A stretch of 64,000 nt of DNA from Neoarius graeffei (taxonomy: Eukaryota > Chordata > Actinopteri > Siluriformes > Ariidae). The position numbers and the translations under genes are program-made. The notes beneath the pieces were generated by a model. The model was not told where the DNA came from, made no database searches, and saw only the letters and a program-made list of their open reading frames with translations. Position 1 is the stretch's first letter, and each line of letters starts with the position of its first letter. The stretch is from the NCBI RefSeq assembly GCF_027579695.1, contig NC_083587.1:34825732-34889731 (forward strand), given 5' to 3'. Positions 3,866 to 31,570 of this stretch are shown piece by piece.

Positions 3866-4116
3866 ACACACAGTTTGGTCCATAAATATTTGGACAGAGA
3901 CAAAATTGTTCTAATTTTGGTTCTGTACATAACCACAATGAATTTTGAACAAAACAATTCAGATGCAGTTGAAGTTCAGACTTTCAGCTTTAATTCAGTG
4001 GGTTGAACAAAATGATTGCATAAAAATGTGAGGACCTAAAGCATTTTTTTAAACACAATCCCTTCATTTCAGGGGTTCAAAAGTAATTGGACAAATTAAA
4101 TAATTGTAAATAAAAT

Positions 4117-4244
4117 CTCATCTCATTATCTCTAGCCGCTTTATCCTGTTCTACAGGGTCGCAGGCAAGCTGGAGCCTATCCCAGCTGACTACGGGTGAA
4201 AGGCGGGGTACACCCTGGACAAGTCGCCAGGTCATCACAGGGCT
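4117..4244 (-). repeat. 5'-truncated SINE (tail type I) with 12-bp target duplication
   Basis: Only the last ~128 bp of the SINE inserted here. The 12-bp direct repeat TGTAAATAAAAT flanks it at 4105-4116 and 4245-4256, as expected for target-primed reverse transcription that stopped early. It lies in the non-coding end of the Tc1 element. Confidence 0.9.
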
Positions 4245-5456: not shown

Positions 5457-6240
5457 AGTAATGACTGGCCGCGGCACTTAGAACACCTAAGGGCCATCCT
5501 TAGGTCGCTGAGGCGAGCGGGTCTCACAGCCAACCCGAAGAAGTGTGCGATTGGGCGGGTGGAAGTACGGTATCTGTGTTTCCACTTGGGCAATGGGCAG
5601 GTACGTTCCCAAATTAATAAGACAGCAGTGATTGTGGCCTGCCCGAGGCCCAAGACCAAAAAGGGGGTGAGACAGTTCCTGGGGCTGGCTACTATCATAG
5701 GTTTATACCTAATTATTCGGACATCACCAGCCCGCTGACTGATCTCACTAAAAAGGGGGCACCAGATCCTGGTCCAGTGGATGGAGCAATGCTGGTGGGC
5801 TTTCTCTGAGGTAAAGGCTGCTCTGTGTGGGGGGGCCACTGTTACACTCCCCTGACTTTTCTCTCCCCTTTATTTTGCAGACAGACGCGTCGGACAGAGG
5901 GCTGGGGGCTGTTCTGTCCCAGGAGGTGGAGAGGGAGGAATGTCCAGTGCTGTACATCAGCCGGAAGCTGTCAGTGCGTGAGGGCAGGTACAGCACAATT
6001 GAAAAGGAATGCCTCGCCATCAAGTGGGCATTCCTCACCCTCTGCTACTACCTGCTGGGGTGCCCTTTCACCCTCTGCTCGTAACATGCACCCCTGCAGT
6101 GGCTCCACCGCATGAAGGATGCCAACGTGCGGATCACCCGTTGGTATCTGTCACTTCAGCCATTTAAGTTCAAGGTGGTCCACAGGCCGGGGGCGCAGAT
6201 GGTCATGGCGGATTTCCTCTCCCGTCAAGGGGGGGGGGGG
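5457..6240 (+). pseudogene. Ty3/Gypsy reverse transcriptase C-end and RNase H, truncated
   Basis: This matches, with substitutions, the RT thumb and RNase H region of the longer Gypsy copy at 54404-55720. Readable parts include RRAGLTANPKKCAIGRVEV, QTDASDRGLGAVLSQ (RNase H Asp), YSTIEKECLAIKWAFL (RNase H Glu) and FKVVHRPGAQMVMADFLSR. Everything upstream of the palm is absent. There are frameshifts near 5690 and 5830, and the DHAPLQWLH motif is damaged (CSstopHAPLQWLH). Confidence 0.88.
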
Positions 6241-6291
6241 AGTCGGCTACGGGCCGGATGGCTCCCCGGCCTGAGACGGGCAGTGGGGGTA

Positions 6292-6583
6292 TGTGTCAGC
6301 GGGGGCGTGGCCAAGCGTCGGTCTGTGAATGAAGGGCAGAGTCAGGGAAGGTAAGTGGTGGAATCACTGCACCTGATGGGAATTAACCTGTGTTTGTGTG
6401 TCTTCCCCAGTGACCGCGCCCTATAAAGAGGAGAGGGAGATCAGAGGAAGGGAGCTCTCCCCCAACCTGAACACTTGGGTGTGTGTGTGTATGAGCAAAT
6501 GTCTAAAGCTGAAAAGCTGAAAGTCAAAGAGTTTTGAGAACTCAGTTCTGGCCTATTGTGCTTCTGTGCTCCACCCACCTAGT
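6292..6583 (+). repeat. 3' LTR of the truncated Gypsy element
   Basis: It begins TGTGTCAGCGGGGGCGTGG just after a G-rich purine tract, the same arrangement as the LTR at 55737. A TATA-like CCTATAAAGAGG lies near 6420. The terminal part is rearranged: after CTCCACCCACC the sequence runs directly into Tc1 sequence. Confidence 0.75.
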
Positions 6584-6802
6584 CAGAGACAACACATACC
6601 TTTTGGAATTGTGGCCAAAAAGTTCAACCTTGGTTTCATCAGACCATAAACCATTTTCCCACATGCTTTTGGGAGAGTTTTTTTGTTTGTTTGTTTGTTT
6701 GTTTGTTTGTTTGTTTTTTTGCAAAATTTAGCTGGGCCTGGATATTTTTCTTTGACCCTACATTATAGTCCAGACATATGGAGAATACAGGAGATTGTTG
6801 TG

Positions 6803-7174
6803 GGCGGCACGGTGATGTAGTGGTTAGCGCTGTCGCCTCACAGCAAGAAGGTCCGGGTTTGAGCCCCGTGGCCGATGAGGGCCTTTCTGTGCGGAGTTTG
6901 CATGTTCTCCCTGTGTCCGCGTGGGTTTCCTCTGGGTGCTCCGGATTCCCCCACAGTCCAAAGACATGCAGGTTAGGTTAACTGGTGACTCTAAATTGAC
7001 CGTAGGTGTGAATGTGAGTGTGAATGGTTGTCTATGTGTCAGCCCTGTGATGACCTGGCGACTTGTCCCGGGTGTACCCCGCCTTTTGCCCGTAGTCAGC
7101 TGGGATAGGCTCCAGCTTGCCTGCGACCCTGTAGAAGGATAAAGCGGCTAGAGATAATGAGATGAGATGAGATG
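6803..7174 (+). repeat. Full-length SINE (tail type I), duplicated copy 1
   Basis: The tRNA-like head GGCGGCACGGTGATGTAGTGG is followed by the box B-like sequence GGTTTGAGCCC, the conserved central body and the tail ending in GATGAGATGAGATG. It ends directly at the duplication junction. Confidence 0.93.
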
Positions 7175-7412
7175 AGTTCTGGCCTATCGTGCTTCTGTGC
7201 TCCACCCACCTAGTCAGAGACAACACATACCTTTTGGAATTGTGGCCAAAAAGTTCAACCTTGGTTTCATCAGACCATAAACCATTTTCCCACATGCTTT
7301 TGGGAGAGTTTTTTTGTTTGTTTGTTTTTTTGCAAAATTTAGCTGGGCCTGGATATTTTTCTTTGACCCTACGTCATAGTCCAGACATATGGAGAATACA
7401 GGAGATTGTTGT

Positions 7413-7776
7413 GGGCGGCACGGTGGTGTAGTGGTTAGCGCTGTCGCCTCACAGCAAGAAGGTCCGGGTTCGAGCCCCGTGGCCGATGAGGGCCTTTCTG
7501 TGCGGAGTTTGCATGTTCTCCCTGTGTCCGCGTGGGTTTCCTCTGGGTGCTCTGGATTCCCCCACAGTCCAAAGACATGCAGGTTAGGTTAACTGGTGAC
7601 TCTAAATTGACTGTAGGTGTGAATGTGAGTGTGAATGGTTGTCTATGTGTCAGCCCTGTGATGACCTGGCGACTTGTCCAGGGTGTACCCCGCCTTTCGC
7701 CCGTAGTCAGCTGGGATAGGCTCCAGCTTGCCTGCGACCCTGTAGAAGGATAAAGCGGCTAGAGATAATGAGATGA
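7413..7776 (+). repeat. Full-length SINE (tail type I), duplicated copy 2
   Basis: It has the same structure as the preceding copy. The box B-like promoter element GGTTCGAGCCC is intact. The target duplication GGAGATTGTTGT lies on both sides (7401-7412, 7777-7788), which places the original insertion inside Tc1 transposase sequence. Confidence 0.95.
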
Positions 7777-8106
7777 GGAGATTGTTGTCACATGTAGTAC
7801 ACAACCAGTACTTGCCAGAAATTCCTGCAGCTCCTTCAGTGTTGATGTAGGCCTCCTGGCAGCCTCCCTGACCAGTTTTTGTGTTGTCTTTTCATCAATT
7901 TTGGAGGGAGGCCCAGTTCTCGATAATGTCACTGTTGTCCCATATTTTCTCCACTTCTTGATGACTGTCTTCACTGTGCTCCATGATATATCTAATGCCA
8001 TGGAAATTTTTTTGTACCCTTCTCCTGACTGATACCTTTCAACAATGAGATCCCTTTGATGCTTTGTAAGCTCTCTGCGAAGCATGACTTTTGCTGGAGG
8101 ATGCAA
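7759..8106 (-). pseudogene. Tc1-like transposase, N-terminal half
   Basis: From the first methionine it reads MHPPAKVMLRRELTKHQRDL, followed by the first helix-turn-helix (EGYKKISMALDISWSTVKTVI) and a GRPP-like linker written TGPPSKIDEKTTQ. Homology ends at the SINE boundary near 7790; the catalytic part continues beyond the SINE in the 7188-7295 segment. It is not functional. Confidence 0.8.
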
Positions 8107-8231
8107 CTGAGTAAATGTCTGAACTTTATTTGGGGTTAATCAGAGTCATTTTAATTGATGGTAGGTATGTACCCAAAAAGACTGAATGCTGTAATTAAAT
8201 CAAAAGGTGCTTCAACAAAGTATTAGTTTAA

Positions 8232-9327
8232 GGGCCCATTTACACGAGGACGCTGTCGGGTAAAAATGACTAAATATTTTATCAGAAGTGCCTTTCGTTT
8301 ACACGGGGATGGCGTTTCCGAGGCTGAAAAATGGATAAAATTGAAAACGGCTTCCAGAGTGGATAAGTTAAAAACGGCCCCCGTTGCATATCCGTCTAAA
8401 CTACCCAATACGCGAAACTCTGCTCGGATCTGCTCACGTCAGGTACGCGTTTACGTCATACATATGTCATATACTGTACATGCCAGCCCGGGAAGTAAGA
8501 AAGTAAGTAAAAAAGTAAGAGCATGTCTGATTACATCGATCCAACGGACCTTCAAGCTGCTCTGTGTTTTAATGCAGTAGATGTGTTTTCCTGCTCACCC
8601 GCCCAGCTGGAGCTCCTCAGTTTGGTGTCGCCAAGTTACACACATGCGCACATGCGCGCGCTGCCTATTCAAGCCGCTCGTGAAACCATTAACCCGAGAC
8701 TGAAAACAAAACTAGCAGCCGAACGGGTTTATTTTCCTGAGATGGACACTGCCTTTTCTCTTCTTCACCGAAACAAGAGTGAGTGTTACTTAATAAAGGC
8801 AGATTAAAAGAGTTTCGGTTTGCTCCTGCTCCTCCCTCGAGCACTACAGTACCTCAGCCGGACCGGTGTTCTGTAAATTTATCCTAGCAAGTTCTCATAC
8901 AGACCGTTTTATTATTCAAAACAAGTCATTACAAATTATTTGACTCGGCCAAAGACTCGACCAATACGCACAAAACATAAAAATCGGCAAATGCGTGAAA
9001 TTCTCACCGATTTTCTATCAGCCCAGCTGATCGGTGGGACAAAACTACTGTTGAATTTTCCTACCCTCCTGGATTTCGCGCATGCACAGTAGGCTTGGTA
9101 GGACAAATCCAAGAGGTAGGATAACTTGACAGAACAGCAGCGCAGATGTGCAGATCAGACAAGATGGAAGACGTTGCGGATGCGTGCAGACATAGCGGAG
9201 ACATTTATGCGTCACTGTATAGACGCAGATTTCCTCCTTGAAAACGGTCGTGTAGACACGGAAAAAAGTGAGAACGAAAACGGACTTTTGCGTTTTTGTT
9301 TTATACCGTCCCTGTGTAAAGTGGGCC
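8232..9327. mobile_element. PIF/Harbinger-like MITE, about 1.1 kb
   Basis: The termini GGGCCCATTTACACGAGGAC and, inverted from the right, GGCCCACTTTACACAGGGAC form terminal repeats. TAA flanks both sides (8229-8231, 9328-9330). It sits inside the 5' non-coding part of a Tc1 element. The interior holds small open frames (for example 8266-8580) with no recognisable domain; they are not supported as genes. Confidence 0.8.
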
Positions 9328-9547: not shown

Positions 9548-10407
9548 GGTGCAATTGCACTCCTCACACAAGCCACTAAAATTATGTAGGTACAGTACCA
9601 GTCCTCACATGAGGCACCAAAATTATGTGGGTGCAATTATGTTATTAAATCAGTCTCATAAAATATCAGTTCATTAATTTTACTCATCAATATTTCTATT
9701 AATTATTAAATTAATGAATGAATTACTCTAGTGATACACTAGATCACTGAAGGCAATGTGAATTCTTTGATGGCAGAGGATAGCTTCAAGTAATACTGCA
9801 GCAAAACAGACAAGACACAGTTTCCTGTTTATTAATTAAATTCCTGTCATTTATTAAAATGACAAAATCAAGTAAGCACAATACTAATCAGGTACATTCA
9901 ATAATACTTGCAACAGTTTAACAATCAAGGCACAAAATGGTGATATGAGGTAGTAGTATTGTGTGTGTGTGTGTTTTTGCAGGCTTAACAAAGGGTTGTT
10001 TGCATGTAAAAAAGGTGGGGGAGTGGACCCTAGGTGCTCTGTATGACTGATTCAACAAAGGCGCATAAATAATCGCTAGCCCATACAGGGATCAAACCCA
10101 CATTCTTGGCATTATGAACACCACACTCTAACCAGCTCCTAGTTTACTGCAGTCTGAAATGTTCAGATGTGTATAATGGTCCGTGGTAAGAAAGTGTTAG
10201 AGAGAGAGAGATATAACAAGAGATAGGGCATGCAAAATCTATCTACCAGAGTAAAACTGAGAAATACAATAACATATGTATTTCTCAGGAGCTGGACTAC
10301 TGACTTGACATGTGCCGTGTCTCAGGTGGCGTGCATCTTGAAAATTTGTGAAATCGTTCATGGAATCCACATACCTTTGAACGTCCCATTCAGATTTTGA
10401 GGAATAA
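9548..10407. other. Unassigned AT-rich intergenic stretch
   Basis: No gene is seen. It holds a short (GT)n at 9959-9974 and a (GA)n at about 10200-10211. The GCTAGCCCATACAGGGATC region near 10075-10135 looks like an old tRNA-derived repeat remnant, but it is too decayed to classify. Confidence 0.5.
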
Positions 10408-10419
10408 ATCTTATATTGT

Positions 10420-10770: not shown

Positions 10771-11500
10771 ATCTTATATTGTTCAACATTAAGCCTGCTC
10801 AGTTTCACGGGCGCAGATAGAGGGGGGGATTCGTCCCACCCAGATTTAAATTCACCTCGTTCGGTCCCCCCCACTTATAGGGAGGAAAAAACGTCTATGC
10901 TGTCTTTCTTTGCATAAGGCAAACCTCACGGAAAAATCAAAAGACTAATTACCATTTGGTTTATTGAGGTGCACAGCACCCACGTGCAATGAACCGGTGC
11001 TACAGGTGCTCTAGCCCCTGCCCCTTTTCTGTTTGCTGTCCAAAGTGCCCTTTTCATAGGGACTATTTTTTTTTTTTTTATATTTGTAAAAGATAAGTTA
11101 GCTCCAACATCAATATTCTCTACAATTTGACAATAATATATGAAATTATAGATTTATAAAATAACGTTTTTCTATGTAAATGTGGGCATCAATCCGTGAC
11201 GTCATGCATTCAGTGAGCCTCCGTGCAGAAAGCGCATGCAGGCGGTTGACAGTGGGAGACAGTGCGAGGAACGGCATGGTAAGGTCACACTGAAAGTCTC
11301 CTTTCATTTCTTATCTGAACATGCAATATTGTGCAGCTTAGAACACAACAGTAAATGCGTAGGGTTGTTTATCATTTAATGAAGCCGCCTAGGCTATATT
11401 TAAACCGTTTGCTCCATCTATTTCATTAACGTGGCAGATTCGGAAACTTTAGTTTGAACGACGGCGTTAATAACATATTCTAGCAGCTTTGAAAACTTAA

Positions 11501-12229
11501 AGGAACAGTCCACTGTACTTCCATAATGAAATATGCTCTTATCTGAATTGAGACGAGCTGCTCCGTACCTATCCAAGCTTTGCGCGACCTCCCAGTCAGT
11601 CAGACGCAGTCAGACGCGCTGTCACTCCTGTTAGCAATGTAGCTAGGCTCAGTATGGCCAATGGTATTTTTTGGGGCTGTAGTTAGATGCGACCAAACTC
11701 TTCCACGTTTTTCCTGTTTACATAGGTTTATATGACCAGTGATATGAAACAAGTTCAGTTAAAAAAATTGAAATGTAGCGATTTTCTATGCTATGGAAAG
11801 TCCGCACTATAATGACAGGCGTACTAACACTTTCTGCGCGCTTCGGCAGCGCATTAATACGGAGCTCAGATATCAATGCGCTGCTGAAGCGCGCAGAAGG
11901 TGTTAGTACGCCTGTCATTATAGTGCGGACTTTCCATAGCATAGAAAATCGCTACGTTTCAATTTGTGTAACTGAACTTGTTTCATATCACTGGTCATAT
12001 AAACCTATGTAAACAGGAAAAACGCGGAAGAGTTTGGTCACATCTAACTTCAGCCACAAAAAATACCGTTGGCCATACTGAGCCTAGCTACATTGCTAAC
12101 AGGAGTGACAGCGCGTCTGACTGCGTCTGACTGACTGGGAGGTCACGCAAAGCTCGGAGAGGTACGGAGCAGCTCGTCTCAATTCAGGTAAGAGCATATT
12201 TCATTATGGAAATACGGTGGACTGTTCCT
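11501..12229. mobile_element. TTAA-specific palindromic (foldback) MITE
   Basis: This 729-bp element is an almost complete palindrome centred near 11866 (around GGAGCTCAGATATC). The ends AGGAACAGTCCAC and GTGGACTGTTCCT are flanked by TTAA (11497-11500, 12230-12233). TTAA target use points to piggyBac or Kolobok type mobilisation; the family was not identified. Other copies are at 15610-16338 and 31133-31556. Confidence 0.82.
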
Positions 12230-12355
12230 TTAAGGCTGAATGACGACGTCCACAACATATTCTATCAAGACTATTATGTTATAGTAGCTTAGGTTAGTTG
12301 AGTTAAAACATAGGGAAACGTTTTCTAAATAAGTGAAAGCCTGCATTATGCAAAG

Positions 12356-12457
12356 ATGCCAAGGAAAGAGAGGATAAAGAAGCAGAAAGAGAAGGAGCTG
12401 CGGGAGGCAGCAAAAGGCAGTGGATCTCTGTCCAGTTGGGTCAGAAAGAAAACTACA
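12356..12457 (+). pseudogene. hAT-Y transposase N-terminal exon relic
   Basis: An open frame begins MPRKERIKKQKEKELREA, continues GSGSLSSWVRKKT and is followed by a GT donor-like site (CAGGTCAG). The basic start and GSL-x-x-x-V motif resemble the N-termini of hAT/ZMYM-like transposases. No downstream catalytic exons remain in this copy. An inverted copy is at 15382-15483. Confidence 0.5.
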
Positions 12458-12771
12458 GGTCAGACTAATCTTCACTTCAGAATGAACAAGAACTATCTGA
12501 CATGTCTTGTTACCAAGATCAACTATATTTTCATATTAATGCTTCAATAAATACATAAAATAAATAAAATTTGTTCCAAGTGCTCTTTTTTGAATGTTGA
12601 GCCCCTGCCCCTCCAAAGGTCTTTGCACGGCCCTGGTGCACAGCAGTACATACATAGTTGCAACTGCGCAGACTGCACAGGTTGCGAGCTCGAGCTTGGT
12701 TGCTATGGTTACCCACAACCAGTTTGACAGGCATATCGGGGACAGCTCCTAGTTCAGGACCCCAACACGGC

Positions 12772-12837
12772 ATGATGAAGGGTGCCAAAAGGCAGAAAAC
12801 GATTGCATCGTTTTTTCAAAAAAAAAAAAAAAAGACT
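12772..12837 (+). pseudogene. hAT-X transposase first-exon relic
   Basis: This short frame starts MMKGAKRQKTIASFFQ, continues as a lysine run and ends at a good donor site (GACT/GTAAGT). KRQKTI-x-SFF starts are common in hAT-family proteins. The rest of the transposase is absent, so it is a relic of the autonomous parent. An inverted copy is at 15005-15067. Confidence 0.5.
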
Positions 12838-13729
12838 GTAAGTAAACTGTGCCTTACTTTATCATATCACCTTGCAATTTTTTGATAGTCTGTTCAAAGT
12901 AATGTCGTAGTGAAAGTAAAATCGTACGGAGTAGAGATGCCTTTCTGGTAGCCTCCTCCTTTCGGTGGTAGCCTGTAGATACAGTGCTCAGAAGGCAGTT
13001 TTAATGTTTAATCTGGCGTTCCCTGCCATAATTTCAGTGAGCATATTGTTTCATAAGGAAACTTTGCGAAGAGTTGTTGACTGACTGCCGCTCACGCAAC
13101 ACACAGGCATAGTTAGAAAGTCAGGATGCACTGGTTTACACTTTACACACACACACACGTAGCCCAGCCTCTCGCTATGGTTAACAGTTGGAACTTAGCG
13201 GTTTTAAAACTAGTTTTGCAGTTTTGCAATTTCTGCGCGTGATGATAATGTGTAAACTTTGGATTTCCATAGGCTATGTTAAAATGTTATCATTGTCCTG
13301 GCCTGCAGGTAGTTCCTGGTGATGGCAGTGAGGGAGGTGAAATAACATGTATACACACTACCGTTCAAAAGTGTGGGGTCACCCAGACAATTTTGTGTTT
13401 TCCATGAAAAGTCACGCTTTTATTTACCACCATAAGTTGTAAAATGAATAGAAAATATAGTCAAGACATTTTTCTGGCCATTTTGAGCATTTAATCGACC
13501 CCACAAATGTGATGCTCCAGAAACTCAATCTGCTCAAAGGAAGGTCAGTTTTATAGCTTCTCTAAAGAGCTCAACTGTTTTCAGCTGTGCTAACATGATT
13601 GTACAAGGGTTTTCTAATCATCCATTAGCCTTCTGAGGCAATGAGCAAACACATTGTACCATTAGACAGGGGTGCAGATAGGATTTTTGAACTGGGGGGG
13701 ACTGAGCTGTCAGCAAATGATTCCACTTT

Positions 13730-13730
13730 T

Positions 13731-13765
<35 letters not shown>

Positions 13766-13790
13766 ATGTATGTGTATGTGTGTATATATA
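13730..13790. repeat. (TA)n/(TG)n microsatellite
   Basis: A TA run with TGTATG interruptions lies between the right end of inner hAT-X and the SINE fragment. Confidence 0.9.
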
Positions 13791-13916
13791 TCTCATCTCA
13801 TTATCTCTAGCCACTTTATCCTTCTACAGGGTCGCAGGCAAGCTGGAGCCTATCCCAGCTGACTACGGGCGAAAGGCGGGGTACACCCTGGACAAGTCGC
13901 CAGGTCATCACAGGGC

Positions 13917-13917
<1 letters not shown>
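13791..13917 (-). repeat. SINE 3' fragment inside hAT-X inner copy
   Basis: The tail-type-I end (GATAATGAGATGAG inverted to CTCATCTCATTATC) is flanked by TA tracts. The outer hAT-X carries the same fragment at 17315-17437, so it was present before the element duplicated. Confidence 0.88.

Positions 13918-13918
<1 letters not shown>

Positions 13919-13974
<56 letters not shown>
13919..13974. repeat. (TG)(TA)n(CA)n microsatellite
   Basis: A long TA run, about 23 units, ends in CACACACA at the Tc1-N terminus. Confidence 0.95.
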
Positions 13975-13980
<6 letters not shown>

Positions 13981-14502
13981 CCGTTCAAAAGTTTGGGGTC
14001 ACTTTGAAATGTCCTTATTTTTGAAAGAAAAGCACTGTTTTTCAATGAAGATCACTTCAAACTAATCAGAAATACATTCTATACATTGCTAATGTGGTAA
14101 ATGACTAGCTGCAAATGTCTGGTTTTTGGTGCAATATCTCCATAGGTGTATAGAGGCCCATTTCCAGCAACTCTCACTCCAGTGTTCTAATGGTACAATG
14201 TGTTTGCTCATTGCCTCAGAAGGCTAATGGATGATTAGAAAACCCTTGTACAATCATGTTAGCACAGCTGAAAACAGTTTAGCTCTTTAGAGAAGCTATA
14301 AAACTGACCTTCCTTTGAGCAGATTGAGTTTCTGGAGCATCACATTTGTGGGGTCGATTAAATGCTCAAAATGGCCAGAAAAATGTCTTGACTATATTTT
14401 CTATTCATTTTACAACTTATGGTGATAAATAAAAGCGTGACTTTTCATGGAAAACACAAAATTGTCTGGGTGACCCCAAACTTTTGAACGGTAGTGTGTA
14501 TA
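13975..14502 (-). mobile_element. Non-autonomous Tc1-N element, intact
   Basis: It is bounded by CTGCCGTTCAAAAGTTTGGG and, inverted, CACTACCGTTCAAAAGTTTG. It lies at the same site within inner hAT-X as the split copy does in outer hAT-X. No coding potential was seen. Confidence 0.85.
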
Positions 14503-15004
14503 CATGTTATTTCACCTCCCTCACTGCCATCACCAGGAACTACCTGCAGGCCAGGACAATGATAACATTTTAACATAGCCTATGGAAATCCAAAGTTTAC
14601 ACATTATCATCACGCGCAGAAATTGCAAAACTAGTTTTAAAACTGCTAAGTTCCAACTGTTAACCATAGCGAGAGGCTGGGCTATGTGTGTGTGTGTAAA
14701 GTGTAAACCAGTGCATCCTGACTTTCTAACTATGCCTGTGTGTTGCGTGAGCGGCAGTCAGTCAACAACTCTTCGCAAAGTTTCCTTATGAAACAATATG
14801 CTCGCTGAAATTATGGCAGGGAACGCCAGATTAAACATTAAAACTGCCTTCTGAGCACTGTATCTACAGGCTACCACCGAAAGGAGGAGGCTACCAGAAA
14901 GGCATCTCTACTCCGTACGATTTTACTTTCACTACGACATTACTTTGAACAGACTATCAAAAAATTGCAAGGTGATATGATAAAGTAAGGCACAGTTTAC
15001 TTAC

Positions 15005-15067
15005 AGTCTTTTTTTTTTTTTGAAAAAACGATGCAATCATTTTCTGCCTTTTGGCACCCTTCATCAT
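15005..15067 (-). pseudogene. hAT-X first-exon relic, inverted copy
   Basis: It reads MMKGAKRQKMIASFFQ then lysines, ending at a GTAAGT donor. It differs from the 12772 copy by T to M at one position and by the length of the A-run. Confidence 0.5.
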
Positions 15068-15381
15068 GCCGTGTTGGGGTCCTGAACTAGGAGCTGTCCC
15101 CGATATGCCTGTCAAACTGGTTGTGGGTAACCATAGCAACCAAGCTCGAGCTCGCAACCTGTGCAGTCTGCGCAGTTGCAACTATGTATGTACTGCTGTG
15201 CACCAGGGCCGTGCAAAGACCTTTGGAGGGGCAGGGGCTCAACATTCAAAAAAGGGCACTTGGAACAAATTTTATTTATTGTATGTATTTATTGAAGCAT
15301 TAATATGAAAATATAGTTGATCTTGGTAACAAGACATGTCAGATAGTTCTTGTTCATTCTGAAGTGAAGATTAGTCTGACC

Positions 15382-15483
15382 TGTAGTTTTCTTTCTGACC
15401 CAACTGGACAGAGATCCACTGCCTTTTGCTGCCTCCCGTAGCTCCTTCTCTTTCTGCTTCTTTATCCTCTCTTTCCTTGGCAT
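15382..15483 (-). pseudogene. hAT-Y N-terminal exon relic, inverted copy
   Basis: It encodes the same MPRKERIKKQKEKELREA start as the frame at 12356. Conservation of the frame in both copies reflects recent duplication rather than selection. Confidence 0.5.
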
Positions 15484-15609
15484 CTTTGCATAATGCAGGC
15501 TTTCACTTATTTAGAAAACGTTTCCCTATGTTTTAACTCAACTAACCTAAGCTACTATAACATAATAGTCTTGATTGAATATGTTGTGGACGTCGTCATT
15601 CAGCCTTAA

Positions 15610-16338
15610 AGGAACAGTCCACCGTATTTCCATAACGAAATATGCTCTTACCTGAATTGAGACGGGCTGCTCCGTACCTCTCCGAGCTTTGCGCGACCTC
15701 CCAGTCAGTCAGACGCAGTCAGACGCGCTGTCACTCCTGTTAGCAATGTAGCTAGGCTCAGTATGGCCAACGGTATTTTTTGGGGCTGTAGTTAGATGTG
15801 ACCAAACTCTTCCACGTTTTTCCTGTTTACATAGGTTTATATGACCAGTGATATGAAACAAGTTCAGTTACACAAATTGAAACGTAGCGATTTTCTATGC
15901 TATGGAAAGTCCGCACTATAATGACAGGCGTACTAACACCTTCTGCGCACTACGGCAGCGCATTGATATCTGAGCTCCGTATTAATGCGCTGTCGAAGCG
16001 CGCAGAAGGTGTTAGTACGCCTGTCATTATAGTGCGGACTTTCCATAGCATAGAAAATCGCTACGTTTCAATTTGTGTAACTGAACTTGTTTCATATCAC
16101 TGGTCATATAAACCTATGTAAACAGGAAAAACGCGGAAGAGTTTGGTCGCATCTAACTACAGCCCCCAAAAATACCATTGGCCATACTGAGCCTAGCTAC
16201 ATTGCTAACAGGAGTGACAGCGCGTCTGACTGCGTCTGACTGACTGGGAGGTCGTGCAAAGCTCGGAGAGGTACGGAGCAGCTCGTCTCAATTCAGATAA
16301 GAGCATATTTCATTATGGAAGTACAGTGGACTGTTCCT
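15610..16338. mobile_element. TTAA palindromic MITE, second copy
   Basis: It has the same 729-bp length as 11501-12229, with TTAA on both sides (15606-15609, 16339-16342). The palindrome centre is around TATCTGAGCTCCG near 15970. Confidence 0.82.
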
Positions 16339-17280
16339 TTAAGTTTTTGAAGCTGCTAGAATATGTTATTAACGCCGTCGTTCAAACTAAAGTTTCCGAA
16401 TCTGCCACGTTAATGAAATGGATGGAGCAAACGGTTTAAATATAGCCTAGGCGGCTTCATTAAATGATAAACAACCCTACGCATTTACTGTTGTGTTCTA
16501 AGCTGCACAATATTGCATGTTCAGATAAGAAATGAAAGGAGACTTTCAGTGTGACCTTACCATGCCGTTCCTCGCACTGTCTCCCACTGTCAACCGCCTG
16601 CATGCGCTTTCTGCACGGAGGCTCACTGAACGCATGACGTCACGGATTGATGCCCGCATTTACATAGAAAAACGTTATTTTATAAATCTATAATTTCATA
16701 TATTATTGTCAAATTGTAGAGAATATTGATGTTGGAGCTAACTTATCTTTTACAAATATAAAAGACAAAACAAAACAACAAAACAGTCTCTATGAAAAGG
16801 GCACTTTGGACAGCAAACAGAAAAGGGGCAGGGGCTAGAGCACCTGTAGCACCGGTTCATTGCACGTGGGTGCTGTGCACCTCAATAAACCGAATGGTAA
16901 TTAGTCTTTTGATTTTTCCGTGAGGTTTGCCTTATGCAAAGAAAGACAGCATAGACGTTTTTTCCTCCCTATAAGTGGGGGGGACCGAACGAGGTGAATT
17001 TAAATCTGGGTGGGACGAATCCCCCCCGTCCCCCCCTCTATCTGCGCCTGTGCCATTAGAACACTGGAGTGAGAGTTGCTGGAAATGGGCCTCTATACAC
17101 CTATGGAGATATTGCACCAAAAACCAGACATTTGCAGCTAGAATAGTCATTTACCACATTAGCAATGTATAGAGTGTATTTCTGATTAGTTTAAAGTGAT
17201 CTTCATTGAAAAGAACAGTGCTTTTCTTTCAAAAATAAGGACATTTCAAAGTGACCCCAAACTTTTGAACAGTAGTGTGT

Positions 17281-17282
<2 letters not shown>

Positions 17283-17314
<32 letters not shown>
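17283..17314. repeat. (TG)n(TA)n microsatellite
   Basis: It follows the right end of the split Tc1-N. It corresponds to 13919-13974 in the inner copy but is shorter. Confidence 0.9.
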
Positions 17315-17315
<1 letters not shown>

Positions 17316-17435
17316 GCCCTGTGATGACCTGGCGAATTGTCCAGGGTGTACCCCGCCTTTCGCTCGTTGTCAGCTGGGATAGGCTCCAGCTTGCCTGCGA
17401 CCCTGTAGAAGGATAAAGCGGCTAGAGATAATGAG

Positions 17436-17437
<2 letters not shown>
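17315..17437 (+). repeat. SINE 3' fragment inside outer hAT-X
   Basis: It begins GCCCTGTGATGACC and ends GATAATGAGAT. It is the counterpart of 13791-13917. Confidence 0.88.

Positions 17438-17472
<35 letters not shown>
17438..17472. repeat. (TA)n microsatellite
   Basis: This uninterrupted TA run is interrupted downstream by a full SINE and resumes briefly at 17848-17858. Confidence 0.95.
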
Positions 17473-17473
<1 letters not shown>

Positions 17474-17476
17474 CAC

Positions 17477-17847
17477 GGCGGCACGGTGGTGTAGTGGTTA
17501 GCGCTGTCGCCTCACAGCAAGAAGGTCCTGGGTTCGAGCCCCGGGGCCGGCGAGGGCCTTTCTGTGCGGAGTTTGCATGTTCTCCCCGTGTCCGCGTGGG
17601 TTTCCTCCGGGTGCTCCGGTTTCCCCCACAGTCCAAAGACATGCAGGTTAGGTTAACTGGTGACTCTAAATTGACCGTAGGTGTGAATGCGAGTGTGAAT
17701 GGTTGTCTGTGTGTCAGCCCTGTGATGACCTGGCGACTTGTCCAGGGTGTACCCCGCCTTTCGCCCGTAGTCAGCTGGGATAGGCTCCAGCTTGCCTGCG
17801 ACTCTGTAGAAGGATAAAGCGGCTAGAGATAATGAGATGAGATGAGA
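17477..17847 (+). repeat. Full-length SINE (tail type I), reference copy
   Basis: Its parts are a tRNA-like head with box A-like TAGTGGTTAGCGC and box B GGTTCGAGCCC (17477-17545), a central body shared with fish V-SINE/DANA-type elements (GTTTGCATGTTCTCC, GGTTTCCCCCACAGTCC), and a tail (CAGCCCTGTGATGACC to GATGAGATGAGAT). It inserted in the TA tract of outer hAT-X after the element duplicated, because the inner copy lacks it. Confidence 0.95.
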
Positions 17848-17925
17848 TATATATATACACACAAAGTGGAATCATTTGCTGACAGCTCAGTCCCCCCCAG
17901 TTCAAAAATCCTATCTGCGCCCCTG

Positions 17926-18153
17926 GTCATGAAATATGGAAATTTGACCAACTTCCAAGCTACTCATACAGTGATTGGTTACAATCCTGTCAGTCATCAA
18001 ACTAATGAAAAGACATGAAAAATCTGTTGAAAGGTACCCAAATTCCTCCTGTTCCCATGGATACACTGTTCAACATATCAAAAATCCTTTCACAAGCTTA
18101 AATCAGGAGACCTGTGATGTCATATGTACCAAGTCTGAATCCAATGAACCGTC
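17926..18153 (+). other. Old dispersed repeat, part 1
   Basis: No gene is seen. The segment near 18075-18150 (ATATCAAAAATCC, GTCATATGTACCAA, GAACCGTCTAG) resembles 21985-22085 in the same direction. This suggests two copies, or two halves, of one old repeat around the Tc1 element. Confidence 0.45.
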
Positions 18154-18156
18154 TAG

Positions 18157-18685
18157 TACCCCTTTTCCACCAAATCAGTTCCAGGGCTGGTTCGGGGCCA
18201 GTGCTTAGTTTGGAACCAGGTTTTCTGTTTCCATTGACAAAGAACTGGCTCTGGGCCAGAAAAACCAGTTCCAGGGTAGCACCAGCTCTTTGCTGGGCTA
18301 GAGGAAAGAACTGCTTACGTCAGCAGGGGGGCGGAGTTGTTAAAACCAACAACAGTAGCGAGACCGTGAGAGGGCACCATTTTTAAATAAGCGACGAGAT
18401 ATCATGGATGCAGTAAAGCAGCAGTCATCCATTATTGTTGTTGTTGCTGATGCTTCTTCTTTTTCTTCTTCATGTTGTTGTTGCTTCGATGTTCGCGCCA
18501 AGGTTTATGCAAATGCAGCGACGTAACTGACATATACAGTGACGTAATGACGTAGCTCCCCTTAGCACCCCGAGCTATGTAAAAGCAAACTGGTTCTCAA
18601 CTGGTTTGCAAGTTGAACGAGTTGTGAACCAGCACCAGCACTGGCCCCGAACCAGCCCTGGAACTGATTTGGTGGAAAAGGGGTA
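18157..18685. mobile_element. Non-autonomous DNA transposon, TACCCC ends
   Basis: The perfect terminal repeats TACCCCTTTTCCACCAAATC and the inverse GATTTGGTGGAAAAGGGGTA are followed inward by CAGTTCCAGGGCTGG. TAG flanks both sides (18154-18156, 18686-18688). No coding sequence was seen. The superfamily is uncertain; a 3-bp duplication would allow PIF/Harbinger. Confidence 0.78.
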
Positions 18686-24213: not shown

Positions 24214-25544
24214 GGGCGGCACGGTGGTGTAGTGGTTAGCGCTGTCGCCTCACAGCAAGAAGGTCCGGGTTCGAGCCCCGTGGCCGGCGAGGGCCTTTCT
24301 GTGCGGAGTTTACATTGTTCTCCCCGTGTCCACGTGGGTTTCCTCCAGGTGCTCCGGTTTCCCCCACAGTCCAAAGACATGCAGGTTAGGTTAACTGGTG
24401 ACTCTAAATTGACCGTAGGTGTGAATGCGAGTGTGAATGGTTGTCTGTGTCAGTCACTACGTTTACATGCACATAGAGAGAATCGAATTTCTGCCGTTGC
24501 TCGACTGAAATCGAAGTTCAAAATGCCATGTATACACCTTAATTCGGCTGAAATTGAACCGAACTTGATTTCTCGGAATCGAGCTACACGACCTAGTTTA
24601 TGCGATTTCTGCCGAGCTTCTTTGTGCATGTATACCCTATCGAGCTAGTTGTCGAGCTACTTCCGGAAGTGACCAGTGACGAGACCACAAGCGGGAAACA
24701 CAACAGCCTCGGTCGGCATGACAACGAATCATGACAACGGCATGAATCTTTTCTTTTTGTGGCATTGTTTGCACTGTTAAAATTTAGCTCACTTACTGTA
24801 TCACCAAATATATCTGTACAGCTGTTGCATAGCTGTGAATTGTATACATAAACAAGTCATTGTATTTGTGTGTGTATATATATATATATATGTGTGTCCA
24901 ACATCTGAAGAATGTCAATCAAAACAATTGAACTTTTTGTGTGTTTATTAAGACATAAGTTAAATTGTAAGCAAAAAAATATATATTTTTTTGTAAGCAA
25001 AAAATGGACTTTAGAAAAATATTATTGTGCAAAATAAGTTGTCTTACAAAACAGTGGTCTGCGCCGGACAGTTTGTAGCCATAGTCTGTTAGAGCAAGCC
25101 TAACAGCTTGAACACGGACTAGTGTTGCCAGATTGGGGGTTTTAAGTGCATTTTAGCGGATTTGAACATGTTTTGGGCTGGAAAACGTCAGCAGTATCTG
25201 GCAACACTTTAGCTCTTCTTCATGACGACAACCGGAAGTCTACCAACACGATGGGACGTGTAGCGCCACGTGTGGCTCGGGTGCACAATGCACCTTGCAC
25301 AATAGCCCGATTTCACTTGTGCATGTAGGATTGGCTTTCTCTGGCACCCCTGCTGGGACCCTTTGCTCGATTACCAACAGCAGCTCGATTTGGACGTGCA
25401 TGTAAACGTAGTCTCTGTGTCAGCCCTGTGATGACCTGGTGACTTGTCCAGGGTGTACCCCGCCTTTCGCCTGTAGTCAGCTGGGATAGGCTCCAGCTTG
25501 CCTGCGACCCTGTAGAAAGCGGCTAGAGATAATGAGATGAGATG
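24214..25544 (+). repeat. Full-length SINE (tail type I), split by a 957-bp element
   Basis: Head and body are at 24214-24455 and the tail at 25413-25544. AGTTCCTTTGTC repeats at 24202-24213 and 25545-25556, showing that both parts are one insertion. It lies just upstream of the chemokine 1 promoter. Confidence 0.92.
24456..25412. mobile_element. Non-autonomous DNA transposon inside the SINE
   Basis: The perfect inverted ends ACTACGTTTACATGCAC (24456-24472) and GTGCATGTAAACGTAGT (25396-25412) bound it. TCTGTGTCAG occurs next to both ends, compatible with an 8-10 bp target duplication and so with hAT. The interior repeats CTCGATT/AATCGAG motifs near both ends. No transposase is encoded. Confidence 0.75.
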
Positions 25545-25838
25545 AGTTCCTTTGTCTATCTCCAGCAGCGCTGTGGACAGATATAAAATAGTGTTGTAGT
25601 CACGATTAACACTGGAGTTGCAGTGCACTGTTTTTGTAATTTTAGTGGCTTTCGAAACTAAAAGCTATAGACACTAGTAGACTAGTTGTGATATTAGCTG
25701 GGAAGACTAAAATATTTCAAAGAGAACATCTATCAAGAGCTTGACAACAAAACTAGCAGTGAATAGTTGAGCAGGTTAAGCAGTGCATTTTATCACAAGT
25801 TTTCATTCACTGCATAATAAGAATGTTGTGGCTCAACT

Positions 25839-30602: not shown

Positions 30603-31129
30603 AGGCCTCTGCATGCTCTTGCGACAAGGCTTTCGCAGATAGCTTTTCGCAGACAGTTGTAATTTATCGTTGAGCGGGGAGTAATAGGCGTGCGCGATGT
30701 TATTCACCGCCACAACGCAAGGGGGCGCGAAGTCGCGAAATCGCTAGGAGTAGTTGGTGGGTGTGGTTAGTGGAGTGTTTATCCTCCGGTTACTTATAAT
30801 GACTAGAACTGGAGTCGTATAGATGTACGTACTTCCTCACTTCCTCGATCAACCGCTCTTCGTGCTGCTCCATCTTCGCTCGTGTTTGTAAAAATGGCGG
30901 TCGTGAAAACAAACCAAACCAGGAAAGTAGGGAAGCGGAAGTGCATGTACAGCGGATGTAAAGTGGACCAATCAGAGCCCTCTTGTCTGTGACGCTGTCT
31001 GCGAGGCTTCTGCGGTGGTCACAATTTTTGGGAGGTGCGCGCAGAGCGTCTGCGAAGGTGGGGGGGGGCTACGCAGACGCTATCTGCGACACCGTCTGCG
31101 AGGACTGTGTTGTCAGCATAAATTGGCCT
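30603..31129. mobile_element. PIF/Harbinger-like MITE
   Basis: The left end AGGCCTCTGCATGC and the inverted right end AGGCCAATTTATGC form imperfect terminal repeats. TAA flanks both sides (30600-30602, 31130-31132). Internal GTCTGCGA/TCGCAGAC motifs are repeated near both ends, a subterminal repeat pattern. The left flank AAGGGCGTAGGTTTGGTC looks like a hAT terminus. Confidence 0.65.
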
Positions 31130-31132
31130 TAA

Positions 31133-31556
31133 AGGAACAGTCCACCATACTTCCATAATGAAATATGCTCTTATCTGAATTGAGACGAGCTGCTCCGTAC
31201 CTATCCGAGCTTTGCGCGACCTCCCAGTCAGTCAGACGCAGTCAGACGCGCTGTCACTCCTGTTAGCAATGTAGCTAGGCTCAGTATGGCCAATGGTATT
31301 TTTTGGGGCTGTAGTTAGATGCGACCAAACTCTTCCGCGTTTTTCCTGTTTACATAGGTTTATATGACCAGTGATATGAAACAAGTTCAGTTACACAAAT
31401 TGAAACGTAGTGATTTTCTATGCTATGGAAAGTCCGCACTATAATGACAGGCGTACTAACACCTTCTGCGCGCTTCGGCAGCGCATTGATATCTGAGCTC
31501 CGTATCAATGCGCTGCCGAAGCGCGCAGAAGGTGTTAGTACGCCTGTCATTATAGT
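31133..31556. mobile_element. TTAA palindromic MITE, third copy, truncated
   Basis: It begins AGGAACAGTCCACC next to TTAA (31129-31132). The left arm is complete, but the right arm stops at GTCATTATAGTG, about 55 bp past the centre, where SINE sequence follows. TTAA is shared with the end of the MITE on its left. Confidence 0.8.
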
Positions 31557-31570
31557 GTTTATTATAATTA

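Follow-up and report, generated by a model that had tools for sequence, protein, structure and literature searches.

How could a composite DNA transposon come to lie in reverse within what appears to be another copy of itself? The question is raised by a pair of long inverted arms in the genome of Neoarius graeffei (2.34 Gb in 38 contigs), where the window that we analyzed, the whole stretch of 64,000 nt, spans positions 34,825,732-34,889,731 of the forward strand of NC_083587.1. The original prediction described a hAT element, hAT-X, that had jumped into its own copy with several passenger elements already on board.

Layout of the inverted arms and the nested hAT-X copies

The arms and the elements that define the inner insertion are as follows.

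10806-13666, no strand, left inverted arm (self-BLAST)
14186-17052, no strand, right inverted arm (self-BLAST)
10806-17925, minus strand, outer composite hAT-X, split by the inner one (family-type termini; component match; no 8-bp duplication)
13667-17052, plus strand, inner composite hAT-X, ends CAGGGGTGCAGATAG and CTATCTGCGCCTGTG, with an exact 8-bp duplication on both sides
13659-13666, plus strand, target-site duplication CCATTAGA left of the inner hAT-X (sequence)
17053-17060, plus strand, target-site duplication CCATTAGA right of the inner hAT-X (sequence)
13347-13666, plus strand, Tc1-N of the outer copy, first half, with an approximate start (component match)
17061-17283, plus strand, Tc1-N of the outer copy, second half, with an approximate end (component match)
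13977-14500, minus strand, intact Tc1-N of the inner copy, ends approximate (unoccupied target site)

Self-BLAST aligned the two arms, whose predicted coordinates (10808-13664 and 14189-17047) were correct to within 2-5 bases, at 97.5% identity over 2880 columns including gaps, and in the MAFFT alignment, which has 2848 aligned bases and another 32 columns with gaps, 40 substitutions (28 transitions and 12 transversions) separate them. The outer limits of the arms are hAT-X termini. The two 8-bp copies of CCATTAGA directly adjoin both ends of the inner hAT-X inside the Tc1-N of the outer copy, and the same site in the inner copy's Tc1-N is unoccupied and continuous (..TTGTACCATTAGAACACTGG..), which bears out the proposed jump of the element at 13667-17052 into the Tc1-N of another hAT-X. 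Our analysis confirmed that the layout is a composite hAT-X inserted backwards into a close relative of that composite. The nest comprises five elements (outer hAT-X > Tc1-N > inner hAT-X > hAT-Y > MITE) rather than the four levels first proposed, and its junction occurred nowhere else in the genome when up to two mismatches were allowed. We also considered gene conversion as a process homogenizing the arms and rejected it, as the longest identical run was 234 bases, a length reached by 82.7% of 2000 shuffles. The window yielded no Rfam match and no tRNA.

Passengers carried by both copies

The inner and outer copies carry the following passengers.

10977-12635, minus strand, hAT-Y of the outer copy, flanked by GTGCACAG at 10969-10976 and 12636-12643
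15204-16872, plus strand, hAT-Y of the inner copy, flanked by CTGTGCAC at 15196-15203 and 16873-16880
11497-12233, no strand, foldback TTAA MITE within hAT-Y of the outer copy, both TTAA ends included
15606-16342, no strand, foldback TTAA MITE within hAT-Y of the inner copy, both TTAA ends included
13790-13916, minus strand, 5'-truncated SINE (tail fragment) in the inner copy's TA tract
17316-17437, plus strand, 5'-truncated SINE (tail fragment) in the outer copy's TA tract
17477-17843, plus strand, full SINE in the outer copy and absent from the inner copy (sequence)

The 8-bp flanks of hAT-Y and the TTAA flanks of the MITE were found in both hAT-X copies, in agreement with the proposal that both held the same passengers at the same sites. 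In each copy the MITE has the TTAA duplication and inverted-repeat ends that mark TTAA-target MITEs, and since the mismatches between its own two arms fall mostly at the same positions in the inner and outer copies, we regard it as one insertion that was copied, not two. The MITE diverged more between the inverted arms than the rest of their length did (19/739 versus 21/2109 elsewhere; p = 0.003, tested after inspection of the data), but because it had the highest CpG density of the five parts counted (51.3 per kb), we did not accept this excess as a signal.

The SINE fragment was likewise present in both TA tracts, as predicted, but as an argument for common insertion it was weak alone, and needed the addition of a third copy, at locus L046, and of shared variants. 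We rejected the truncation point as proof of a common insertion: it is not diagnostic by itself because a separate SINE at 4115-4244, which has a target duplication of its own, starts no more than one base away from that position, and locus L011 carries what looks like a full SINE in this TA tract.

Stepwise loading and movement of the composite as a unit

A genome search for the composite returned 454 candidates, 40 of which were scored, the two copies in the window among them. The junction between hAT-X and hAT-Y was present in all 40 scored places, aligning over 119-120 of 120 bases with 96-100% identity; this search could have revealed hAT-X copies with passengers at different sites, and instead the junction was shared throughout. 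Empty sites were equally clear, with a single clean CTGTGCAC in all ten fetched copies that lack hAT-Y, and a single clean TTAA in the four readable copies that lack the MITE.

Outside the window we fetched 31 loci with a hAT-X body, of which 23 had both ends. Exact 8-bp target duplications, all different, flanked 19 of these 23, while one matched at 7/8 (L023), one at 6/8 (L042) and two had none; for comparison, random 8-mers matched at 8/8 in 17 of 20,000 trials. Among the fetched MITE-bearing copies that lie outside the window and have both ends, 7 of 10 had exact 8-bp duplications, again all different. The clean empty sites, the invariant junction and the distinct duplications together indicate that the composite was loaded stepwise and then moved as a unit, so that the proposal of movement with passengers on board was upheld.

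The 8-bp target-site duplications and the short terminal inverted repeats (CAGGGGYGCAGATAG; right end CACRGGCGCAGATAG in the window) are those of the hAT superfamily. In the search for a hAT transposase, two short remnant peptides matched no Pfam family, and the composite is apparently non-autonomous. Exact-pattern scans with the hAT-X end gave no matches in viral contigs and none in prokaryote contigs.

Kinship of the inner and outer copies

Among 15 full-length copies, the inner and outer elements were the closest of the 105 pairs (1.45% apart; median 2.16%), and the insertion was therefore into a close sibling rather than into the element's "own copy", as had been claimed. Three variants were common only to the inner, outer and L046 copies within this set, and L046 also bears the truncated SINE fragment. 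IQ-TREE grouped the inner and outer copies (73.2/83) and split these two and L046 from the other twelve (94.7/86); FastTree supported the inner and outer pair without L046 by only 0.44. An exact pattern containing one of the three shared variants occurred at 8 places genome-wide, and a pattern with a variant restricted, within the set, to the inner and outer copies occurred at 3, among them C29:42981789. By BLAST score, the inner body matched C12:70376471 (4349 bits) slightly better than the outer copy (4322 bits), but with gaps uncounted the outer copy ranked ahead. Gain of the truncated SINE in one sublineage that includes both nested copies is supported less strongly than the steps that involve the other passengers. 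We examined whether the outer copy was a chimera of two known lineages and rejected this, as its nearest neighbors varied among its parts and no distinct breakpoint emerged.

The original interpretation was supported, with qualifications as to the sibling copy, the SINE argument, the depth of the nest, the target duplication of the outer copy and the hairpins, which are a prediction.

The outer copy and alternative origins of the structure

The outer hAT-X, which has its left end at 17925 and its right end at 10806, lies between a left flank (CTCAGTTT) and a right flank (GTCATGAA) that differ and show no target-site duplication. This absence had been overlooked in the original prediction. Each flank belongs to a different repeat.

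10277-10418, resuming at 10771-10805 after a SINE, plus strand, left flanking repeat (family 1), which ends abruptly at the outer hAT-X
17926-18140, plus strand, right flanking repeat (family 2), whose upstream part is missing at the outer hAT-X end

The family 1 repeat ran on beyond the junction position in both relatives read, and two of three family 2 relatives were alike for approximately 90 bases upstream, the third (L051) matching the others for only some 20 bases there when the alignment was judged by eye. Together with the missing duplication, these interrupted repeats point to rearrangement by way of a hAT-X copy, an event that may have joined two different sequences. A search for the rearrangement partner with one outer-end pattern gave no exact match and one match with a single mismatch, and the other outer-end pattern gave no matches. 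Lack of a target duplication is not special to the nest, because L044, where nesting was not seen, and L026 lack one too.

The main rival to rearrangement of the outer copy is an assembly join that merged two composite hAT-X loci through the repeat, at the outer junctions or across the entire inverted structure. Such a join would yield just the outer ends observed, with intact termini, no duplication and unrelated flanks; we nevertheless consider it unlikely, since no join is required to explain the inner insertion, which has an exact duplication and an intact-site copy, the window contains no N bases, and 38 contigs for 2.34 Gb suggest long reads able to span 7.1 kb, although the technology is unstated. 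It is more doubtful still that the outer copy inserted in the ordinary way long ago and has since lost its 8-bp duplication to mutation. Imperfect duplications do occur at L023 and L042, but the best match between the outer flanks over 9 offsets was 3 of 8, and mutation of 8 bp is insufficient to explain flanks that come from different repeat families, each cut at the junction.

Two further explanations concern the arms themselves, and both appear very improbable. An inverted duplication, by replication template switching or foldback repair instead of transposition, would fit the near-palindromic form of the structure, but not the exact 8-bp duplication that flanks the inner copy on both sides, the intact unoccupied site in the other copy, or arms that end outwardly at element termini. 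Autointegration of a single excised hAT-X into itself has precedent in Sleeping Beauty and piggyBac, for which a lack of self-avoidance is described (PMC3952818), and the nest resembles these cases in that its target choice shows no self-avoidance. From a single element, the reaction described there produces deletion circles or inversions (PMC3952818), whereas the nest took two complete hAT-X copies that are 1.45% divergent.

Proposed history and comparison with known systems

Very probably, the locus is a nest of composite hAT elements resembling double Ds, formed by stepwise loading, spread as a unit and reverse insertion into a sibling, with an inferred rearrangement of the outer copy. A hAT-X bearing Tc1-N gained hAT-Y and then the TTAA MITE, and the loaded element reached numerous sites through hAT-type transposition that left 8-bp duplications; its movement would have required transposase supplied by an autonomous relative. 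One loaded copy entered a sibling's Tc1-N in reverse orientation, duplicating CCATTAGA; donor and target were probably siblings of recent origin, and may therefore have been linked or have lain on sister chromatids. The proposed rearrangement of the outer copy could reflect ectopic recombination between two copies or a transposase using the ends of two copies.

In maize double Ds, a non-autonomous hAT copy lies inverted inside another from its own family, and 8 bp of element-borne sequence are duplicated; this layout (state I Dissociation; Ac/Ds, hAT superfamily) breaks chromosomes when transposase is supplied. Judged from sequence, this is the closest known architecture to the nest, which shares the inverted same-family second copy and an inner target duplication, CCATTAGA, made of sequence that the element carries (within Tc1-N). 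The nest differs in lying in a fish genome, in being a multi-layer composite whose copies are 1.45% apart, and in having its target inside a passenger instead of hAT sequence. It is a natural animal example, at base level, of the layout that makes a hAT element a chromosome breaker in maize. Composite non-autonomous DNA transposons with nested elements, mobilized as a unit with their passengers, are a general kind to which hAT-X conforms in its movement; what sets it apart is that its loading order can be read directly from unoccupied sites within its own genome, in a hAT family that accumulated multi-layer cargo stepwise yet kept spreading. The Ac/Ds terminal repeat is C/TAGGGATGAAA (PMC3260210), in contrast to the hAT-X ends (CAGGGGYGCAGATAG), so that the layout is like double Ds and the element is not Ds.

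According to a report on alternative transposition of maize hAT elements (reversed-ends and sister-chromatid), breakpoints lie at hAT termini, and a terminus can be left without a matching duplication (PMC3744419). The outer hAT-X termini, which lack a matching duplication at candidate rearrangement breakpoints, resemble what is described there, but no partner end with a shared 8 bp was found, and alternative transposition at the outer copy therefore remains a candidate. The outer junction offers a testable prediction on vertebrate rearrangement at hAT ends.

By analogy, the nest might itself be a past or present maker of rearrangements, its four hAT ends in mixed orientation deleting or moving neighboring DNA, and transcription through its 2.85-kb inverted arms might produce hairpin RNA and so silence the family. 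We offer this only as a speculation that is probably wrong; if it were true, the combinations of ends in the nest would account for an outer copy that lies without a duplication between two cut repeats.

Locus L026, as a separate observation, is an inverted pair without a duplication, and neither of the two stretches flanking its first copy matched any other fetched sequence.

Structure of the nest

Self-comparison of the window (C20:34825732-34889731, in a genome assembly of 2.34 Gb and 38 contigs), whose SINEs and Tc1-type elements we take to be fish-like in appearance, placed the inverted arms at 10806-13666 and 14186-17052. As originally predicted, these arms are inverted copies, with 40 substitutions over 2848 aligned bases and a further 32 gap columns in their alignment.

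Copies of the hAT-type element hAT-X forming the nest
10806-17925, - strand: outer hAT-X, interrupted by the inner copy
13667-17052, + strand: inner hAT-X, first bases CAGGGGTGCAGATAGG, last bases CTATCTGCGCCTGTG

The inner hAT-X is directly adjoined on each side by CCATTAGA, and the Tc1-N passenger of the outer copy is broken at this point. Because the same point in the inner copy's own Tc1-N reads through without interruption, the pre-insertion sequence is known. The inner hAT-X inserted in the ordinary hAT manner, duplicating 8 bp. Since both copies of CCATTAGA point the same way, the interval between the arms has not been inverted. The nest, predicted to have four levels, has five: the outer hAT-X, then Tc1-N, the inner hAT-X, hAT-Y and a foldback MITE.

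Movement and loading of the composite

A 94-bp query from the hAT-X left end gave 257 candidates, of which 40 were scored and 20 of those fetched. By component matching, eight of the 20 had the left end with a different body (body matches weak at best), ten had hAT-X and Tc1-N without hAT-Y, and two had hAT-X, Tc1-N, hAT-Y and the MITE. The hAT-X/hAT-Y junction (120-bp query) had 454 candidate places, 40 of which were scored; all 40, the window's two copies among them, matched over 119-120 bases with 96-100% identity. We fetched ten loci from these matches and then nine more (eight from the junction list, one from a BLAST search with the inner body), which brought the fetched loci with a hAT-X body to 31, 23 of them including both ends. 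Exact 8-bp duplications, each different, flanked 19 of the 23, including 7 of the 10 MITE-bearing copies; duplications were imperfect at L023 (7/8) and L042 (6/8), and none was present at L026 and L044. The loaded composite has therefore transposed repeatedly, and the prediction that it moved with passengers aboard held. Elsewhere in this genome, two composites 192 kb apart (C1:79158993 and C1:79351363), both truncated at one query position and with near-equal scores, are probably a segmental duplication.

All ten fetched copies lacking hAT-Y read TACTGCTGTGCACCTCAATAA, with a single CTGTGCAC. Four of the MITE-less copies (L029, L035, L036, L047) could be read across both junctions, and each of the four has a single TTAA; the count leaves out L031 and L034, where that part of hAT-Y is absent. 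From these clean unoccupied sites it follows that Tc1-N was acquired before hAT-Y, and hAT-Y before the MITE. A partial copy of this TTAA foldback MITE also lies at 31126-31557, about ten bases from a SINE truncated at its position 180.

Elements with the hAT-X left end only have a TA tract at the same place. Near 1440-1700 (turned to the hAT-X orientation), L017 and L020 carry Tc1-like sequences other than Tc1-N in this subterminal tract, making at least two of the six such elements compared, with the family assigned by eye. This suggests a recurrent landing site, and the tract may be a landing pad for TA-targeting elements.

Relatedness of the inner and outer copies

Among 15 full-length composites, taken from 33 aligned rows, the inner and outer copies showed the lowest divergence of any of the 105 pairs (1.45%, against a median of 2.16%). 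Three variants were common to these two and L046 only, and L046 also has the truncated SINE of the two nested copies between its left end and Tc1-N. The three were grouped against the other twelve by IQ-TREE (SH-aLRT/ultrafast bootstrap 94.7/86) and FastTree (0.955), and the inner and outer copies against all others at 73.2/83 and 0.44, respectively. Genome-wide, an exact pattern containing one of the three variants occurred at 8 places, and one with a variant confined within the set to the inner and outer copies occurred at 3, the third being C29:42981789. The FastTree value of 0.44 counts against a strict inner/outer pair, as does the BLAST score of the inner body, slightly closer to C12:70376471 than to the outer copy. 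The two copies thus appear, from their sequences, to be siblings within a small sublineage; the element did jump into a close relative, but to call this its own copy, as predicted, was an overstatement. Gene conversion between the arms was not indicated.

Junctions of the outer copy

The outer copy has family termini at both ends and no target duplication, the best flank match being 3 of 8 over 9 offsets.

Repeats adjoining the outer copy
10277-10418, then 10771-10805 past a SINE: left flank repeat
17926-18140: right flank repeat, distinct from the left one

With 1873 candidates for the left repeat, the 39 scored places apart from its own were 89-93% identical to it, and the two relatives compared, L048 and L049, were alike for 37 bases beyond the junction (..CAGTTTCRTTTGCCTAGA..). 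For the right repeat, with 81 candidates, the corresponding 39 places were 77-88% identical; of three relatives compared, L050 and L052 resembled each other over about 90 bases on the upstream side of GTCATGA (72 of 91 columns), and L051 matched them over only some 20 bases upstream, by eye. Among the 40 matches listed per repeat, places of the two repeats adjoined nowhere except in the window. The outer copy thus links two unlike repeats, each of them interrupted, an arrangement that a simple insertion does not yield.

Ectopic recombination between two hAT-X copies could have produced this arrangement, as could transposase acting on the ends of two copies; the structure predicted for reversed-ends transposition includes a hAT terminus that lacks a matching duplication (PMC3744419). 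An assembly join would also give these junctions. A pattern search for a partner end with the same 8 bp gave no exact and one single-mismatch match for one side, and none for the other. Events of this kind are not confined to the nest, because L044 and L026 likewise lack duplications. L044, a composite in which both termini are present, was not seen nested; L026 has two inverted hAT-X copies about 0.8 kb apart (5572-8598, turned so that the first is on the + strand), the first complete and the second without its right part.

Comparison with known systems

The layout of the nest corresponds to that of maize double Ds. The terminal repeats of hAT-X differ from those of Ac/Ds, and the nest would by analogy work like double Ds without being Ds. 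No transposase was found for the hAT-X family, two short remnant peptides matching 0 Pfam families. Sleeping Beauty and piggyBac show no self-avoidance, and the autointegration products described for them derive from one element (PMC3952818), whereas the nest involves two. We found no described vertebrate case of such a nest among the open-licence papers listed, and one may exist in print.

Other repeats in the window

An exact inverted pair of 49 bp (18157-18205 and 18637-18685) bounds another short element immediately to the right of the nest. A tandem duplication, recognized by eye (6544-7173 and 7175-7782, about 0.63 kb, 95% identity), includes a full SINE whose 3' target duplication is kept in the second copy only. 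At 24215-25546, a SINE is interrupted by about 0.95 kb of inserted sequence with the ends GTTTACATGCAC and GTGCATGTAAAC. Finally, an independent 5'-truncated SINE at 4115-4244, with its own target duplication, starts within one base of the start point of the nest's SINE fragments, and the truncation point therefore recurs.
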